NCBI GenBank assembly: GCA_010084195.1
Contig: RGPS01000020.1
Span: 1-46,078, forward strand
Reading direction: 5' to 3'
Origin: Terriglobia bacterium
Lineage (GTDB): Bacteria > Acidobacteriota > Terriglobia > Bryobacterales > Bryobacteraceae
DNA: 46,078 bases
Positions 5,633-40,017 of the stretch are shown here, piece after piece. How positions within the stretch are numbered: position 1 is the first letter of the stretch; each line of letters begins with the position of its first letter. The notes beneath the pieces are model-generated. The model did not search any database. It saw only the letters and a list, made by a program, of their open reading frames with translations, and was not told the DNA's origin. Position numbers and translations under genes: made by a program.

Positions 5633-6370
5633 TTAGTCCGGCTCCGGAAATCTGCACTGCGGCAGCGCGGAGCGCAGGGTTCTTATGCCATCCGCGGAAA
5701 CACCAGTGCAGTTGACGTTTAGCTCGCTCAACGTCGATACCGACCCCAGTGCCTCAACGCACGCGTCGGTAATGTCGCACCGGGTCAGCCAAAGGACCTC
5801 CAGCTTTGGAAGCGTGGCGAGCATTTTCGCCCCAACGTCAGAAACATTGTGGGCGCATATGTCGAGGTGGCGAAGTGTGGGCATCTTCGACAGCGTCTCC
5901 ATGGCGGCGTCTGTGACGCGCGGTCCCAGCCAAAGGGTCTCCAGCGGCAGCGCAGCCAGCGCTGCCACTCCCCGGTCGGTCAAACCCGTCATGTGCATCT
6001 CCAGGTGCCGCAGCCCGGGAATCTTCGCCAGGGTTTCGGCACAGGTATCTCCCACAAACCGGCAACCTTCCAGTCGCAGATCCCGTAGTGGCAGGTGGGC
6101 CAGGGCTGTCAGATCCCCCCGATTTGCGGTGTACGCGAGGATCAGCGTCTCCAGCTTATTCAAATGTTGCAGATGGACAAACACCCCATCATCGACCCGC
6201 ATTTCTCCGAGCACCAGTTGCTTCAGTTCGGTGAGCTGCGCCAGGGGTGCCAGGTCGTTATTGACGAGCGGTCCGCCCCAGATCACCAGGTATTCCAGTT
6301 CCGATTCGAGTCCCAGGCCCTGTAGTTTGTCCGGTGTGAGGTCCTCACCACGGAACTCCAGTTTCCTCAT
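5633..6370 (-). CDS. Leucine-rich repeat protein
   Basis: 245 residues made almost entirely of leucine-rich repeats of about 23-26 residues, for example LRHLEMHMTGLTDRGVAAL, LRHLDICAHNVSDVGAKML and LEVLWLTRCDITDACVEAL. There is no signal peptide or membrane segment, so it is probably cytoplasmic and works by binding another protein. The partner is unknown. Its ATG overlaps the Lon stop codon in an ATGA (6367-6370), so it is translationally coupled to Lon. This invites the guess that it is a Lon adaptor or substrate recruiter; that is inference from position only. Confidence 0.85.
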   Translation of the reverse strand: MRKLEFRGEDLTPDKLQGLGLESELEYLVIWGGPLVNNDLAPLAQLTELKQLVLGEMRVDDGVFVHLQHLNKLETLILAYTANRGDLTALAHLPLRDLRLEGCRFVGDTCAETLAKIPGLRHLEMHMTGLTDRGVAALAALPLETLWLGPRVTDAAMETLSKMPTLRHLDICAHNVSDVGAKMLATLPKLEVLWLTRCDITDACVEALGSVSTLSELNVNCTGVSADGIRTLRSALPQCRFPEPD

Positions 6371-8829
6371 CGTGCCCGGGCTTTCCGCCCCTTCACCACC
6401 GGAGGCCTGGGTTCCACCAGCGCAATCGCAGCCACTTCATCCATGGTCCTGGCGTAGTGGATTTTCATATCGCCGAGTTGCTCTGCTTTCAGATCTTCGA
6501 GGACATTCACCTCATTGTCGGCCGGCAGAATCACTGCGGTCACGCCGCTTCGTTTGGCCGCCAGCACCTTCTCTTTGATCCCACCCACAGGCAGAACCTG
6601 GCCAGTCAGGGTAATCTCGCCCGTCATCGCCAGGCGGTCCTGGACACACTTATCGGTGAGCATCGAAAGCAGGGCGGTCGCCATGGTGACACCGGCCGAC
6701 GGGCCATCCTTGGGAATTGCCCCGGCAGGTACATGGACGTGGATATCGCTTGTCTTGAAGACATCCGGGTCAATGCCCAGCCTGGTCGCATTTGACCGAA
6801 CCCACGTCAGAGCCGCCTGCACAGACTCCTGCATCACCGAGCCCAGTTGCCCGGTCATAATCAGCCCCTTGCTGCCGCCCGGCATCCGTCCAGCTTCTAT
6901 AAAGAGGACGTCACCACCGACCGGTGTCCACGCCAGCCCAACGGCCACGCCCGGTCGACTGGTGCGTTCCGCCACTTCCGTTTCGGGCCGGAACCGGGGT
7001 GCCCCCAAAGATTCTTCCACCAGGGCCGTCGTTACTGTCGTGACTGCCGCCAGACCCTCCGCGTACCGTCGAGCCACCTTACGGCAAACCGTGCCGATCT
7101 CTCTTTCCAGGTTCCGTACACCCGCCTCGCGAGTGTAGCGACGCACGATGTGTCTCACCGCAGCATCATCAAACTCCAGATTCCGCGCTTCGCCCAGCCC
7201 GTTTTCCGTCAATTGCCTCGGGATCAGATACCGGAAGGCGATGACCACTTTTTCAGCTTCTGTATAGCCCTGGAGGTGAATAATCTCCATGCGATCCCGG
7301 AGTGCTTCCGGGATTGTGTCGAGCACGTTGGCGGTTGTTATGAACAGCACCCGCGAGAGGTCAAACGGCTGGTCCAGGTAATTGTCGCGGAACGTTGCGT
7401 TCTGCTCCGGGTCCAGAACTTCCAGCAGGGCCGAAGCGGGGTCCCCCCGGAAATCGCGACCGAGCTTGTCCACCTCGTCCAGGATGAAGACAGGGTCATT
7501 CGAGCCTGCCCTTTTCAGGGCCTGCATGATTTGCCCCGGCAGAGCCCCTATGTAGGTCCGGCGATGGCCCCGGATCTCGGCTTCATCGTGCATCCCACCC
7601 ATGGAGATGCGCTGGAACTTTCGGCCCAGTGCGCGCGCAATCGAACGACCCAGCGAGGTCTTGCCTACTCCGGGGGGGCCGGTAAAACAGAGAATCGGGC
7701 CCTTCATGGAGGGTTTCAGCTGCCGCACTGCCAGGAAATCCAGAATCCGGTCCTTTACTTTCTCCAGATCGTAATGGTCTTCATCCAGAATCTCGGCGGC
7801 CCGCTTGATGTCAATCGTTTCGCCAGTCGAGATCCCCCAGGGCAGCGTTACCATCCATTCCAGCCAGGTCCGAACGACATTATGCTCGGGTGAGGCTGAA
7901 GGGATCCGGCTGAAGCGAGTGAGCTCCTTAAGGGCTTCTTCTTTCACCGTCGCAGGCATGGCCGAACTCTCAATTTTCGTTCGAAATTCGGTTGTCTCGC
8001 TGTCCTGGTCCTCGCCTTCGCCCAGTTCCTTGCGGATCGCCTTTAGCTGTTCCCGAAGGTAAAACTCGCGCTGGCTCTGCGACAGTTGCCCCTGCACTTC
8101 GGCCTGAATCTTTTGCCGCAACTCCAGTAATTCGATCTCACGGGCCAGTTGCTGGTTGATGTATTCGAGCCGTTTTCGGGCATCATTCTGCTCCAGCACC
8201 AATTGCCGCTCCGCGTGACCAAGGCTGGGCAGCGCGCCCGCAATAAAATCCGCAAGCCTTCCAATTTCGACGATCTGGCCCGCAGCCCCCGCTACGTCGT
8301 CCGACACATTCGGCGTTGCCGCAATAATCTGGGTAAATTCGCTGACTACGTTCTGGCGCAGCGCCGTCAGTTCCGGCGTTACCTCCGGCTCTATCTCGGG
8401 CAGGCGTTCGATTTGGGCTTTCAGGAATGGCTCACCGGGGATGTAGCTGAGCGTCTTCATTCTGGACACGCCTTCGCAGAAAAGTAACTGGCCGTCCCGC
8501 ATGCGGACCATCTTGTGGATAATGGCCACCGTGCCAACCCGATTCAGCTCCTCAGTGCTCGGGTCTTCGGTTCTGGGGTCCAGTTGTGACACGATACCAA
8601 TCAGCCGGTTTTCACCCAAAGATTCCACCAGTGCGACGGAAGCCGGGCGACCTACGGGGAGGGGGAATAGCGCATTTGGGAAGAGGACGATGTCCCGAAC
8701 GGTCAGAATTGGCAATTCTTCGGGTTGAGCTGTCTCGGCGGAAACCGAATCGGTTGAGTTGGGCTCGTCCGTTACAGTGGACGATTCGGGGGTGTCGGGG
8801 CCTGTCTCTGAAACAGCGGTATCATCCAT
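6367..8829 (-). CDS. lon: ATP-dependent Lon protease
   Basis: AAA+ serine protease that unfolds and degrades damaged and regulatory proteins in the cytoplasm. From the ATG at 8829 the protein is 820 residues, the normal Lon size. It has the N-terminal LON domain (from LPILTVRDIVLFPNALFPLP), a coiled-coil middle, the AAA+ module (Walker A GPPGVGKT near 383-390, Walker B VFILDEVDK) and the protease domain. The catalytic serine is in DGPSAGV (about residue 711) and the lysine in GGIKEK (about 754). The start is uncertain: a GTG at 8868 adds 13 residues but has AGGAGG running straight into it, while the ATG has GGAGG only two bases away. The region before the LON domain is acidic and Ser/Thr-rich. 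The downstream LRR gene is coupled by ATGA. Confidence 0.96.
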   Translation of the reverse strand: MDDTAVSETGPDTPESSTVTDEPNSTDSVSAETAQPEELPILTVRDIVLFPNALFPLPVGRPASVALVESLGENRLIGIVSQLDPRTEDPSTEELNRVGTVAIIHKMVRMRDGQLLFCEGVSRMKTLSYIPGEPFLKAQIERLPEIEPEVTPELTALRQNVVSEFTQIIAATPNVSDDVAGAAGQIVEIGRLADFIAGALPSLGHAERQLVLEQNDARKRLEYINQQLAREIELLELRQKIQAEVQGQLSQSQREFYLREQLKAIRKELGEGEDQDSETTEFRTKIESSAMPATVKEEALKELTRFSRIPSASPEHNVVRTWLEWMVTLPWGISTGETIDIKRAAEILDEDHYDLEKVKDRILDFLAVRQLKPSMKGPILCFTGPPGVGKTSLGRSIARALGRKFQRISMGGMHDEAEIRGHRRTYIGALPGQIMQALKRAGSNDPVFILDEVDKLGRDFRGDPASALLEVLDPEQNATFRDNYLDQPFDLSRVLFITTANVLDTIPEALRDRMEIIHLQGYTEAEKVVIAFRYLIPRQLTENGLGEARNLEFDDAAVRHIVRRYTREAGVRNLEREIGTVCRKVARRYAEGLAAVTTVTTALVEESLGAPRFRPETEVAERTSRPGVAVGLAWTPVGGDVLFIEAGRMPGGSKGLIMTGQLGSVMQESVQAALTWVRSNATRLGIDPDVFKTSDIHVHVPAGAIPKDGPSAGVTMATALLSMLTDKCVQDRLAMTGEITLTGQVLPVGGIKEKVLAAKRSGVTAVILPADNEVNVLEDLKAEQLGDMKIHYARTMDEVAAIALVEPRPPVVKGRKARAR

Positions 8830-9008
8830 ACCCTCCAGATTACCGGAGTTGACGCCAGGAATCGGCACCTCCTCTCAAAAAACACCCCTGAACACGATGC
8901 GGCTGACTGTCGGGCACCCGTCGGACTTGCTCCCCGGCATTCGGTTGGCAGCGCAAGACACAACAAAGTGTTCGTGTTGTCCGTTCCGGCCTCAAGCCGG
9001 TTCCAAAT

Positions 9009-17016: not shown

Positions 17017-19755
17017 ATGGCTGCTAGCCTCATGAGTGAAGGTATGAACCCGGCCCCGAACTCTCTTGGTCTAACCCCGCGCGCACGCCTCGTTATGTGC
17101 TGCGGCGACTCTGCGGCACAGGTCGATCCTGAGCTGATCTCAAGGCTCACCACCGCCGTCGAGCGGGGTTCAGGCTATGTACTATTGCTGCTGGGAGCGG
17201 GAGGGCCGGGCGGGCTCCAGTCGCCTGTCCTCTCCTGGTGGCATGAATTGGGGGCCCTCTACATAGCGGGAGTATGCGTCCAGGCCGGGCTCGACGCTCC
17301 GCCTCCCGGCCTCCGTGTTCCCTGTCCTCCCGACGAGCAACTGGAGCGGCTCACGCTTTCCGCTCCCCCCATGCAGGGGGCCGAGTACCTTACGCTGGCC
17401 GCGCTGAGCCATCTCTGGTACCAGCTCGACGCCGCTTTCGATACCGAGCTGTCGGAAGCAGCCTGCGATGTGCAGGAGTTTCTGAAGCGCCACAATCCAG
17501 CCTGGAATCTGGTCGGCCGGGTCCATTTCAACCTGGCTGAAAACAAGAAAGATCCCGACTCCCCCTTCGCTTTCCTGGCCACCTACACGACCAGGCTCTC
17601 GGCCCAGGCAAAAGCACAGCACGTGCCCCTCGGCCAGGCACTCCGCGAGTACTCCGGCGCGGCCAGCAAAGATCGGCTGCTTTCCCTTCTGCTTCCCGTG
17701 CAGCGCGCCGCCGAATCCTGTCTCTGGCTCAAGACCATGGTGGACGGCGGTGAACTTTTCCATCCCCTGCGCTGGAGTCCACGGGAGGCACTCTGCCTCC
17801 TGCGGGACGTCCCCAAACTGGAAGCCGCCGGTGTGGTGGTCCGCATGCCGGCCGCGTGGTCCGGTAACCGTCCTCCACGTCCGCGGGTGAAGGCTACGGT
17901 GGGTGGCGGACCGCCCACAACCGTTTCAGTTGGTCTCGATGCCATGCTGGATTTCCGCACCGAGGTGACGGTGGATGGCGAGCCTCTCACGGCGGCGGAA
18001 ATCCGCGAACTTCTGGCGCAGTCCGACGGTCTGGCGCTGGTTCGGGGTCGCTGGATCGAACTCGACCGCGAGCGGCTACAGAAGACCATGGACCGCTTCG
18101 GGCAAATTGAGCGCTCCGCCGCAGCAGGCGGTCTCAGCTTCGGCGAAGCGATGCGGCTGCTGTCCAGTGCCAACATCGCGGGCGATGATGTCGACGCCAC
18201 CGAAACCGCGCAATGGTCCCAGGTATCAGCGGGGCCGTGGTTGGCCAATACGCTGAAGGGAATGCGGGGCCCCGAGGGCCTGGCGGCGGTCGATCCGGGT
18301 GACGGGTTGCGCGGCACACTGCGCGCGTATCAACAAGCAGGCGTTCGCTGGCTTTACCTGCTGTCGCAACTGCGGCTCGGCGCCTGTCTGGCTGACGACA
18401 TGGGGCTTGGCAAGACCCTTCAGGTGCTTTCCCTGCTGGTAGTTCTGAAACGCCAGGCCGGGAAGGAACACCGCCCTTGTCTGTTAGTGGCACCCGCCTC
18501 CCTGCTGGATAACTGGGCGGCCGAGATCGAGCGCTTTACCCCCGGCCTTCAGGCGCTGGTGGCGCACTCTTCAGCGCTCCCGGCCGCCGAACTCAAAGCC
18601 ATGCCGGAGGCAAGGCTTGCCAAAGTCGACCTGGTGATCACCAGCTACGGCTCCTTGCTTCGTCTGCCATGGCTCACCGATTTCGCCTGGCGTGTGGTCG
18701 TGCTTGACGAAGCCCAGGCGATCAAAAATCCCGATTCGAAGCAGACCCGGGCGGTGAAAAAACTGCGGGCGGGTTCGCGAATCGCGCTGACAGGTACACC
18801 GGTGGAGAACCGGGTGTCGGATTTATGGTCGATCTTTGATTTCGTAAATCCGGGTCTCCTCGGCTCCGCGAAGGAGTTTGTCGGTTTCACGAAGCGAATT
18901 GCCGCTCAGCCGGACGGCTTTCGCCCCCTGCGCGAACTGGTCCGCCCTTATATCCTGCGCCGCCTGAAGACGGATAAAACCGTCATTGCCGACCTGCCCG
19001 ACAAGACCGAGCTCAAGGTCTGGTGCCCGCTCAGCCGCCCGCAGGCAGCGCTTTACGAACAGGCGGTGAAGGAACTGGCCAGTACGCTCCGACAGGCCCA
19101 GGGGATCAAACGCCGTGGCCTGGTGCTTTCGTTCCTGATGCGCTTTAAGCAGATCTGCAATCATCCGTCGCAATGGCTGGGGGACGGCGTCTGGAACGAG
19201 AATGACAGCGGCAAACTGGCACGGTTGCGGGATATCGCTGAGGTCATCGCGGCACGCCAGGAGAAAATGCTGGTATTCACTCAGTTCCGCGAGATTATTG
19301 AGCCTCTCACCGCGTTTCTGGGTTCGATTTTTCAGCGCCCCGGCCTCGTGCTTCACGGTGGAACCGAAGTGAAAGAGCGCAAGAACCTGGTCCGCCGCTT
19401 TCAGGATGACGAGTCGATTGGCTTCTTCATCCTGTCTCTCAAGGCGGGTGGCTCCGGGTTGAATCTCACTGCTGCATCTCACGTCGTCCATTTCGACCGC
19501 TGGTGGAATCCGGCTGTCGAAAATCAGGCCACGGATCGGGCGTTTCGCATCGGCCAAACGAAGAACGTGCTGGTCCACAAATTCGTTTGTCGGGGTACGC
19601 TGGAAGACAAGATTGACGAATTGATTGAGTCCAAACGCAGTCTGTCGCAGAACATTCTGGAAGGTGGTGCCGACTTGCTGCTGACCGAGATGAAGGATGA
19701 CGAATTGCTGGGGCTCGTAGCGCTCGATATCAACAAAGCACTCAAGGAGACCTAA
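17017..19755 (+). CDS. SNF2-family ATP-dependent helicase-like protein
   Basis: 912 residues. An N-terminal half (1-430) includes a region like the bacterial SNF2-associated domain (DUF3670). The SNF2 ATPase follows: LRAYQQAGVRWLYLL, Walker A DDMGLGKT (460-467), DEAQ box (564-567), ALTGTPVENR, then the helicase C domain with LHGGTEVKERKNLV, SLKAGGSGLNLTAASHV and DRAFRIGQ. Such proteins translocate on duplex DNA and remodel protein-DNA complexes or aid repair and transcription. The start is not certain: ATGs at codons 1, 6 and 10 are all possible. The SWIM protein begins three bases after its stop, so the two act together; SNF2-SWIM pairing in bacteria was noted when the SWIM domain was first described. 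Confidence 0.95.
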   Translation: MAASLMSEGMNPAPNSLGLTPRARLVMCCGDSAAQVDPELISRLTTAVERGSGYVLLLLGAGGPGGLQSPVLSWWHELGALYIAGVCVQAGLDAPPPGLRVPCPPDEQLERLTLSAPPMQGAEYLTLAALSHLWYQLDAAFDTELSEAACDVQEFLKRHNPAWNLVGRVHFNLAENKKDPDSPFAFLATYTTRLSAQAKAQHVPLGQALREYSGAASKDRLLSLLLPVQRAAESCLWLKTMVDGGELFHPLRWSPREALCLLRDVPKLEAAGVVVRMPAAWSGNRPPRPRVKATVGGGPPTTVSVGLDAMLDFRTEVTVDGEPLTAAEIRELLAQSDGLALVRGRWIELDRERLQKTMDRFGQIERSAAAGGLSFGEAMRLLSSANIAGDDVDATETAQWSQVSAGPWLANTLKGMRGPEGLAAVDPGDGLRGTLRAYQQAGVRWLYLLSQLRLGACLADDMGLGKTLQVLSLLVVLKRQAGKEHRPCLLVAPASLLDNWAAEIERFTPGLQALVAHSSALPAAELKAMPEARLAKVDLVITSYGSLLRLPWLTDFAWRVVVLDEAQAIKNPDSKQTRAVKKLRAGSRIALTGTPVENRVSDLWSIFDFVNPGLLGSAKEFVGFTKRIAAQPDGFRPLRELVRPYILRRLKTDKTVIADLPDKTELKVWCPLSRPQAALYEQAVKELASTLRQAQGIKRRGLVLSFLMRFKQICNHPSQWLGDGVWNENDSGKLARLRDIAEVIAARQEKMLVFTQFREIIEPLTAFLGSIFQRPGLVLHGGTEVKERKNLVRRFQDDESIGFFILSLKAGGSGLNLTAASHVVHFDRWWNPAVENQATDRAFRIGQTKNVLVHKFVCRGTLEDKIDELIESKRSLSQNILEGGADLLLTEMKDDELLGLVALDINKALKET

Positions 19756-37372: not shown

Positions 37373-38071
37373 TTACCTCCATAAAGCCACGCGCAACCGG
37401 AAGTTCCGGGCCCGGGTCAGGGCTTCCTCGGTGCCTCCCGCTTCGTAGCCTTCCAGTAATTTCCGCGCCGCCGAGCGCCGGGCCCGATTATCCGGATCCT
37501 GCACGGCCTGGAACAGCATCGCCTCCACTGCGCGCCCCGGCGCATGGCTCAGGATTTCCATTTCGCTGAGCAGGGCTTCCTCTGTGGCTCGTTCGGCTGC
37601 CAGGCGATCAAAGGCACTTTGCGAATCGGGGCCGGCAAAATGCCCGTCGGCGAAGGCAACACAATCGACAGAAGCTTTCACCTGCAGCATACGCCGGAGA
37701 TTGTCCAGGTTCATGCGCCCTCGGGTATGCGCCGCGACATCACCCCGCAGCACCAGAGACGTATATTCCGGTTCGGCGCACACAAATCTCTTCACGCCCG
37801 GTTTCAACTCCGCCTTGTCGGGGTTTCGCAAGGCGTCGGCATAATGGACCACGGAATACTGCTGGGCTCTGGGGCTCACCATATCGAACCGGACACCCAG
37901 GAAGGCCACGGTCCGTCCCCCCTGATTTTCCACAATTACGGAATAGGGCAGCGCCGGACGCAGCAGGTCGCGGGGGGCCCGGCCCAATACCGCCACCAGG
38001 CCTTCCTCAAACGCGGGAGTCTCGGGACCATGGATCAGGATGCCATCCACCGGGGAAGGGAGGGTCTTCAT
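37373..38071 (-). CDS. Protein of unknown function
   Basis: 232 residues, no signal peptide or membrane segment. The N-terminal part is beta-rich (PYSVIVENQGGRTVAFLGVRF); the C-terminal part is helical and charged (RARRSAARKLLEGYEAGG, then RARNFRLRVALWR). I do not recognise a family. It converges on the membrane protein gene and diverges from selD; 105 bases separate it from selD. Confidence 0.65.
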   Translation of the reverse strand: MKTLPSPVDGILIHGPETPAFEEGLVAVLGRAPRDLLRPALPYSVIVENQGGRTVAFLGVRFDMVSPRAQQYSVVHYADALRNPDKAELKPGVKRFVCAEPEYTSLVLRGDVAAHTRGRMNLDNLRRMLQVKASVDCVAFADGHFAGPDSQSAFDRLAAERATEEALLSEMEILSHAPGRAVEAMLFQAVQDPDNRARRSAARKLLEGYEAGGTEEALTRARNFRLRVALWR

Positions 38072-38176: not shown

Positions 38177-39214
38177 GTGACAGAGCCAAAAGAGTTTTCA
38201 CGCAAGCTGACCGCCCATGTGAAAGCCGCTGGTTGAGCGTCCAAGTTAAGTCCAAAGTTATTGGACAGGGTGCTGGGCGGCTTGCCCAAGATTACCGATC
38301 CGAACGTCCTGGTTGGCTTTGACACTGCCGACGACGCCGGAGTGTATCTAATCAACGACGATCTGGCCCTGGTTCAAACAGTGGACTTTTTTACCCCCAT
38401 CGTGGATGACCCCTGGACTTTTGGTGCCATCGCAGCTGTGAACGCCCTCTCCGACGTTTGGGCTATGGGCGGACGCCCGATCTCCGCGCTCTCCATCGTG
38501 GCCTTCCCCGGCACTGGCGATATGGATGTACTTGGCGAAATCCTGCGCGGCGGGCTCGACAAAATGCTCGAAGGTGGCTGCACCGTCATCGGGGGGCATT
38601 CCGTCAACGATCCGGAAATCAAGTTCGGCTACGCTGTCACCGGCACCATCCATCCAAAGAAAATCAAAGGGAATCGCGACGCCCGGGTTGGCGACGATCT
38701 TGTCTTCACCAAAGCCCTCGGTACCGGCGTGATCGGCACTGCGTTGAAGCGCGGCCTCGCTTCAGACGAAGCTGTCGCGGCTGCGACCGCTTCCATGCTG
38801 ACGCTGAACAAAGCAGCTTGTGAGGCTATGCTGCAATTTGACGTTCACGGCTGCACGGACGTCACGGGCTTCGGCATGATCGGCCATGCCCGTGAAATGG
38901 CAATTGCCAGCAACGTAACACTGGAAATCGAGGCCGCCCGCGTTCCCCTGCTCCCTGGGGCGCTGGAAGCCTGGGATGCCGGAGCAATTCCCGGAGGCCT
39001 CCGAAACAACATCGATTTTGCCGGATGCTCGGTTGAGACACTGGAAGGCGTGGATCCCCGAGTCGAAGGTCTTCTGTACGACCCGCAAACCGCCGGTGGC
39101 CTTCTCATTTCGATGCCTCCCGCGGACGCAGCTGGATTCGTCCGCACCTTTGTTCAGGCCGTTCGAATTGGCCGAGTGATACAAAAATCTGACCGCCCCA
39201 TACGCCTCCTATGA
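38177..39214 (+). CDS. selD: Selenide, water dikinase (SelD), itself a predicted selenoprotein
   Basis: 345 residues with one in-frame TGA (38234-38236) read as selenocysteine at residue 20. SelD makes selenophosphate from selenide and ATP. Starting from the GTG at 38177 (AGG four bases upstream) the N-terminus reads LTAHVKAAG-U-ASKLSPKLLDRVLGGLP; the U aligns with catalytic Cys17 and the K three residues later with Lys20 of E. coli SelD. The length then matches the family. Without the TGA reading, the protein would start at the TTG 38261 and lack its active-site residue and lysine. Further motifs: DDAGVYLINDDLALVQTVDF, NALSDVWAMGG and HGCTDVTGFGMIGHAREM. It is coupled to pyrF by ATGA. Confidence 0.9.
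38237..38266 (+). promoter_or_regulatory. Candidate bacterial SECIS element in selD
   Basis: Directly after the TGA. A 6-bp stem (GTCCAA 38250-38255 with TTGGAC 38261-38266) closes a 5-base loop AGTTA, with the loop starting 19 bases after the TGA and a G among its first two bases. These features fit the published general model of bacterial SECIS elements. An alternative pairing uses GTCCAA at 38239-38244 with the same 3' arm. It would bind SelB to decode TGA as selenocysteine. Confidence 0.6.
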
Positions 39215-40017
39215 CGACAACCCCGACGAACGATCCGCTGATCATCGCCCTCGATGTGGATTCAAAAGCGGAAGCCGATGCCCTTGTCACTGCTCTGGGC
39301 GACAATGCCACTTTCTACAAAGTGGGCATGGAACTCTATGCCGCTTCCGGCATGGACTACGTCCGCAGCCTGATTGATCGCGGCAAGCAGGTCTTCCTGG
39401 ATATGAAGTACTACGACATTGGTGAAACCGTGCGCCGGGCCGTAGCTGTAGCCGCCAAATCTGGTGCGACCTTCCTGACTGTCCACGCAGTCGGCCAGGT
39501 CATGAGAGCCGCCGTTGAAGGCCGTGGGGATTCGCCAATGAAGCTCCTCGCGGTGACGGTGCTCACCAGTCTGGACCAGAAAGACCTGGTCGAAATGGGC
39601 CACACCGGAACGGTCAGTGATCTGGTTGCGTCACGGGTCGTGCAGGCCCGCGCCGCAGGCATTGATGGCCTGGTCGCCTCGCCACTCGAAGCCGCCGCCA
39701 TACGCCAGATCGCCGGCCCCGAAGCAATCCTGGTGACCCCCGGAGTTCGCTCTGCCGGGGCGGCCAAAGGGGACCAGAAGCGCGTAGCGACACCTGTCGA
39801 AGCTCTCCGCGATGGGGCTAACTACCTGGTTATCGGTCGCCAGGTGACTCGTGCTGCCGACCCGGTTGCCGCTATCGCGCAGATTCGCGCAGAAATCCCT
39901 TCATTCCCGATGACACGATTCTGGTCGTATCCGGCTTTGCCGCTCACGCAGGAAAACTCGATTTGGCCACCACCATTGGTGTGGCGTATGCGGGCAGCCT
40001 CTGCGGCATCAGCCTGA
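39211..40017 (+). CDS. pyrF: Orotidine 5'-phosphate decarboxylase with a foreign C-terminal tail
   Basis: 268 residues. Converts orotidine monophosphate to UMP. The family starts properly: IIALDVDSKAEADALV, catalytic LDMKYYDIG (K and D residues), TVHAVGQVM, and the phosphate-binding LVTPGVRSAG and NYLVIGRQVTRAADP. Real PyrF proteins end about here (near 230 residues), but this frame runs on for about 39 more, ending in a tail (from PSFPMTRFWSYPALPL) that is the neighbouring dedA sequence in another frame. Its own stop codon appears lost. The enzyme core is intact, so activity may survive. It overlaps selD by ATGA. Confidence 0.92.
   Translation: MTTTPTNDPLIIALDVDSKAEADALVTALGDNATFYKVGMELYAASGMDYVRSLIDRGKQVFLDMKYYDIGETVRRAVAVAAKSGATFLTVHAVGQVMRAAVEGRGDSPMKLLAVTVLTSLDQKDLVEMGHTGTVSDLVASRVVQARAAGIDGLVASPLEAAAIRQIAGPEAILVTPGVRSAGAAKGDQKRVATPVEALRDGANYLVIGRQVTRAADPVAAIAQIRAEIPSFPMTRFWSYPALPLTQENSIWPPPLVWRMRAASAASA

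Follow-up and report, generated by a model that had tools for sequence, protein, structure and literature searches.

The window, by which we mean the whole 46,078-nucleotide stretch of DNA that was analysed, is one contig (C102) of a draft Bryobacteraceae genome that comprises 6.5 Mb in 628 contigs and is 94.4% complete. It carries selD, the gene for selenophosphate synthetase, with pyrF immediately downstream (Table 1). The frame that opens at GTG 38177 contains a single internal TGA, flanked by the peptides KAAG and ASKLSPKLL, before it reaches its terminal stop codon, just as the first-pass annotation of this DNA had described. GTG 38177 is a plausible start for selD, and the product would then be a protein of 345 residues with selenocysteine (Sec) at residue 20. 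Even without the N-terminus, the downstream part of the protein scored 341 bits with the SelD family profile TIGR00476 (cut-off, 125), which identifies it as SelD; in the whole-genome search the same family gave 357 bits in a match that spans the site and has one TGA inside it. An Rfam scan of the window returned no matches, and a tmRNA search returned nothing bearing on selD.

Table 1. Features of the selD locus and other genes of the window
Feature	Position	Strand	Remarks
Lon protease	6367-8868		Ordinary neighbour
SNF2-type helicase	17017-19755		Closest to the SCO1167 family, score under the cut-off; ordinary neighbour
Upstream neighbour of selD	37373-38071	-	No NCBIfam match
selD, selenide, water dikinase (selenophosphate synthetase)	38177-39214	+	GTG start; final stop TGA 39212-39214
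In-frame TGA at the catalytic position	38234-38236	+	Putative Sec codon
Lys codon AAG	38243-38245	+	Three residues past the Sec position; invariant in 14-row alignment
SECIS hairpin	38250-38266	+	GTCCAA 38250-38255 pairs with TTGGAC 38261-38266; loop AGTTA 38256-38260
Shorter frame from mechanical caller	38261-39214	+	TTG start; start codon inside the hairpin 3' arm
pyrF, orotidine-5'-phosphate decarboxylase	39211-40017	+	268 aa, 260 bits; ATG overlaps the selD stop (ATGA)

The internal TGA had been assigned to the catalytic Cys/Sec position of SelD, with the essential Lys three residues later, and an alignment with known proteins had been proposed as a check. When the TGA was read as a residue, phmmer aligned it to the Cys of Escherichia coli SelD (3u0o) in a match covering residues 6 to 316 with 235 bits; the AGC..K motif (AGCASK against AGCGCK) and the Lys were in register, bearing out both the position and the spacing. 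The two proteins differ in that the E. coli chain has Cys where the window gene has UGA. We take Cys17 and Lys20 to be the essential residues of the E. coli enzyme. The first-pass annotation was also correct that automated gene calling would lose the active site: the mechanical ORF list starts selD at TTG 38261 and gives a protein of 317 aa from which the site is missing.

An internal TGA in a single gene could be a sequencing or assembly error, or the mark of a pseudogene, with TGC or TGT as the true codon; the window comes from a fragmented draft assembly, and Cys codons do occur at this position in relatives. We therefore examined 121 Bryobacteraceae genomes, including that of the window, drawn evenly from a larger group. 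A SelD query without the N-terminus gave a match, in some cases only a weak one, in 113 of the 121, and the catalytic codon was read in 103 (30 loci and 73 stretches), the other 18 having no match or a weak one. Sites were located with a pattern that permitted any residue or stop at the catalytic codon. Among the 103 readable genes this codon was TGA in 86, TGC in 14 and TGT in 3, a distribution that chance could not plausibly produce, so that the in-frame UGA is kept either as UGA or as a Cys codon throughout, as is expected of a selenoprotein family. Within the genus of the window's organism, the codon is TGA in G000 and G041 but TGT in G097. The first-pass annotation had regarded a Cys codon in a related strain, together with a TGA shown to be an error, as evidence against its reading; such relatives exist, one of them in the same genus, but the TGA is not an error, since it is common to 86 of the 103 readable genomes, the window's own included. 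The rest of the selD frame is open and conserved in relatives, and the hairpin described below is kept with compensatory changes in the TGA genes and not in the Cys genes. On this evidence, an error or a decayed gene has a negligible chance of being the explanation.

Downstream of the TGA lies a hairpin with a 6-bp stem and a 5-nt loop with G in second place, 19 nt separating the TGA from the loop. According to PMC13188914, the limits of the bacterial SECIS element (bSECIS) are a stem of 4 to 16 bp, a loop of 3 to 9 nt with G in one of the first two positions, a distance of 16 to 37 nt from the UGA and a minimum free energy (MFE) of at most -7.5 kcal/mol. The selD hairpin falls within these limits in its 6-bp stem, its AGTTA loop, its 19-nt distance and the MFE of a 42-nt piece: the 42 nt from the TGA fold with -11.3 kcal/mol (z, -2.1), the 6-bp helix lying inside a longer helix, whereas a 34-nt piece alone gives -7.0, which just misses the energy limit. 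The motif GTCCAA occurs twice after the TGA (38239-38244 and 38250-38255), and either copy is able to pair with TTGGAC 38261-38266. Folds of single sequences were split accordingly: the best fold of locus L019 and the 34-nt window centroid pair the first copy with TTGGAC, whereas in L021 and L029 it is the second copy that pairs, with one additional base pair. Only the second copy is conserved, the TCC codon of the first being present at +2 in 30 of 59 TGA rows.

A hairpin of this kind in a single sequence is weak evidence, but across relatives it is strong. On both strands of the window alone, with no energy threshold imposed, 215 of 1,261 TGA triplets are followed by a hairpin with a stem of 6 bp or more that respects the limits on loop and spacing; in 17 cases the spacing is 19 nt. 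A hairpin of this loose kind is also present in 4 of the 17 Cys genes. Across 57 distinct TGA rows (alignment A2), by comparison, 99.7% of 342 cells were paired, three of the six pairs had changes on both sides, and none of 500 shuffles attained any of five measures; across 20 Cys rows (alignment A3), 56.7% of 120 cells were paired and the shuffles did equally well. Within the family set, the complete six-pair stem is present in 86 of 86 TGA genes versus 1 of 17 Cys genes. Codon use follows the same division: in 59 TGA rows the codons were AGT for Ser at +5 (55/55), AAG for Lys at +7 (48/48), GAC for Asp at +10 (57/57), CCA for Pro at +6 (55/59), TTG for Leu at +9 (53/59) and GGT for Gly at -1 (58/59), whereas use at the same positions in 20 Cys rows was mixed. 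The codons that form the hairpin are thus held fixed in the TGA genes but vary freely in the Cys genes, and because compensatory changes and constraint are seen in the TGA rows and not in the Cys rows, the hairpin is judged to be under selection. This is the strongest sequence argument for a Sec-containing SelD, and it formed no part of the case made by the first-pass annotation. The codon counts and the A2 and A3 rows derive from loci L017 to L105 minus L104, de-duplicated, with two Cys rows titled Proteobacteria (L084 and L085) included; the pattern located no site in L094, nor in L116 and L121, which lie outside that range. This set of named records was retrieved in part with a pattern requiring Cys at the catalytic position, and its ratio of Sec to Cys is therefore not a frequency, for which the family set is to be used.

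The same comparisons bear on the alternative that the TGA simply stops translation and that a shorter protein, without the catalytic residue, is made from TTG 38261, where the mechanical ORF call begins. The peptide LTAHVKAAG-TGA-ASKLSPK is conserved in relatives before and across the TGA. TTG 38261 itself is part of the hairpin's 3' arm, and the codon is CTG in 6 of the 59 TGA rows, with the pairing base matched in 5 such distinct rows among the 57. We consider a downstream start to be extremely improbable.

If the TGA is read through, the inserted residue could in principle be Trp, Gly or Cys, by way of an altered genetic code or a suppressor tRNA. Naturally varied decoding by tRNA-Sec has been described; this analysis found nothing in support of such a reading for selD. 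Moreover, selD itself ends in TGA right at the start of pyrF, TGA is also the final codon of selD in many relatives, and the genome encodes both selA and a tRNA-Sec with the anticodon UCA. Decoding as another residue can hardly be credited, and with it all three alternatives (sequencing error, downstream start and changed genetic code) were rejected on the basis of conservation, the hairpin, the terminal TGA and the decoding machinery.

The first-pass annotation had proposed a check of the genome for selA, selB and tRNA-Sec, and this machinery was found in full with regard to selA and tRNA-Sec and in part with regard to selB. The tRNA-Sec gene (selC) lies on contig C513 (69.7 bits) and selA on C595 (482 bits; cut-off, 268). 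Only an N-terminal piece of selB, about the first third, is present, at a contig end (C5:3-866, minus strand; locus L010); it covers profile positions 1 to 236 and scores 231 bits, a little short of the required 242, and across 208 aa it shares 71% identity with the complete 615-aa SelB of the same-genus genome G041. The match ends at about residue 219 and is followed by some 70 residues of unrelated sequence up to the contig end, and PF09107, the SelB winged-helix family, had no match in this assembly. Both same-genus genomes searched, G041 and G097, have a whole selB. The simplest reading is that the truncation is probably an assembly fault at the contig end; possibly, selB is really broken in this genome. 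Contig C101 was considered as a second piece of selB and rejected, its frame reading by eye as elongation factor Tu.

A second tRNA-Sec match in the same genome (C502), just over the gathering score, is a tRNA-Ser according to ARAGORN, and of the five control genomes over that score two (Caulobacter and Thermus) were unexpected; for these reasons, matches were counted at an E value below 1e-11 rather than at the gathering score. By this measure 93 of the 121 family genomes have a tRNA-Sec match, the anticodon being checked in the match of the window's own genome, and a hand count by class gave 70 of 86 genomes with TGA-SelD, 17 of 17 with Cys-SelD and 6 of the 18 without a readable SelD. In the remaining 16 TGA genomes (L200 to L215), no tRNA-Sec was found, even in a repeat search with laxer filters, and the best place was a tRNA-Ser (15 genomes) or a tRNA-Leu (1 genome) by ARAGORN. 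These 16 genomes keep the SelD TGA and the hairpin, and in one of them, G045, SelB was found with 314 bits. The search scored 32 candidates per genome, and 144 on repeat, out of several hundred to about 2,000, in genomes that are mostly drafts; tRNA-Sec genes may therefore have been missed.

Taken together, these data indicate that selD almost certainly encodes a selenocysteine-containing SelD by means of an internal UGA and a downstream hairpin. The earlier reading to the same effect is thus upheld by what we observed, namely, the codon and its conservation as TGA in 86 of 103 genes, the hairpin and its constraint, selA, the tRNA-Sec with anticodon UCA and part of selB. Three observations weigh against it: the truncated selB of this genome, the 16 TGA genomes in which no tRNA-Sec turned up and the competing pairing that appears when single sequences are folded. 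By analogy with the established pathway, a ribosome reaching UGA 38234-38236 would receive Sec-tRNA(Sec), through its anticodon UCA, from SelB docked on hairpin 38250-38266; Sec would be inserted as catalytic residue 20, and translation would run on to UGA 39212-39214, which would end the protein. SelD would then make selenophosphate from selenide and ATP, and SelA would use this selenophosphate to convert Ser-tRNA(Sec) to Sec-tRNA(Sec), so that SelD would be an enzyme in need of its own product. Such dependence on selenium is already established for SelD proteins that contain Sec.

The Cys-containing SelD proteins of the family (e.g., that of G097, TGT) are close relatives of the window protein: in the 14-row alignment, six rows have Cys and are 64 to 69% identical to it, and in five of the six pyrF was found beside selD. 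They differ in the Cys codon and in the unconstrained hairpin. Parsimony on a SelD tree required nine exchanges of Sec and Cys, of which no fewer than five fall on well-supported branches, with a bootstrap range of 8 to 10; the tree holds 100 of the 103 genes, three short fragments having been dropped, and its bootstrap had not settled. Since the tree is unrooted, it does not give the direction of these changes; PMC1794560 reports Sec-to-Cys changes in SelD and no Cys-to-Sec changes. A further difference lies at SelD residue 18 (38228-38230), two residues before the site, which is Ala in 59 of 59 TGA rows but is replaced by Gly in 17 of the 20 Cys rows, possibly as a partner change to the exchange of Sec and Cys.

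We also considered what else selenophosphate and Sec might serve in this organism. Its genome has four molybdopterin oxidoreductase matches, none of which has an inner stop; the best of them (C601, L216) is a formate dehydrogenase alpha subunit (TIGR01591, 919 bits) with TGC at the motif ARVCHSP, the Cys of which we take to correspond to Sec140 of E. coli FdhF. The alignments obtained for this subunit were to other enzymes that have Cys at that position. Selenouridine synthase (TIGR03167) was not found in the window's own genome. Other selenoproteins probably exist in the Bryobacteraceae, since all 17 genomes with Cys-SelD have a tRNA-Sec match. With respect to gene order, a survey of up to about 1.5 kb downstream of selD found pyrF beside selD in 24 of the 30 family loci examined, including that of the window, and an in-frame ATGA overlap in 19 of the 24. 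The Cys formate dehydrogenase, the lack of inner stops in the four oxidoreductases and the missing selenouridine synthase could mean that Sec decoding is kept here largely for SelD, and the overlap could mean that, when selenium is scarce, ribosomes stopping at the Sec codon also reduce the translation of pyrF, thereby tying pyrimidine synthesis to selenium; this combined proposal is speculative, and we think it very unlikely to be correct.

Sec-containing SelD has long been known and is common in bacteria; the mechanism is not new, and it is the host family that is little studied. The gene described here resembles other bacterial Sec-SelD genes in its family, its catalytic position, its UGA with a downstream bSECIS and the accompanying Sec machinery, and differs from them in its host, a Bryobacteraceae organism represented by a draft genome, and in the overlap of selD with pyrF, no functional difference having been found. 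PMC1794560 names FdhA and SelD as the most widespread selenoproteins, and PMC13188914 ranks SelD as the second most expansive family. For the Acidobacteria, PMC1794560 lists four selenoproteins of three families and gives the selenouridine trait as absent, and PMC12013277 gives three selenoprotein genes for Occallatibacter riparius. The literature searched contained no paper on SelD of the Bryobacteraceae or on a link between selD and pyrF.

In conclusion, the finding matters for the annotation of this family: of the 121 genomes sampled, 86 would lose the active site of SelD if gene calling treated TGA as a stop. Furthermore, with 86 Sec genes, 17 Cys genes, nine changes between the two states and a hairpin that is free to vary where Cys is encoded, the Bryobacteraceae provide a clean natural series for the exchange of Sec and Cys, and this series sits in the very enzyme that feeds the Sec pathway.
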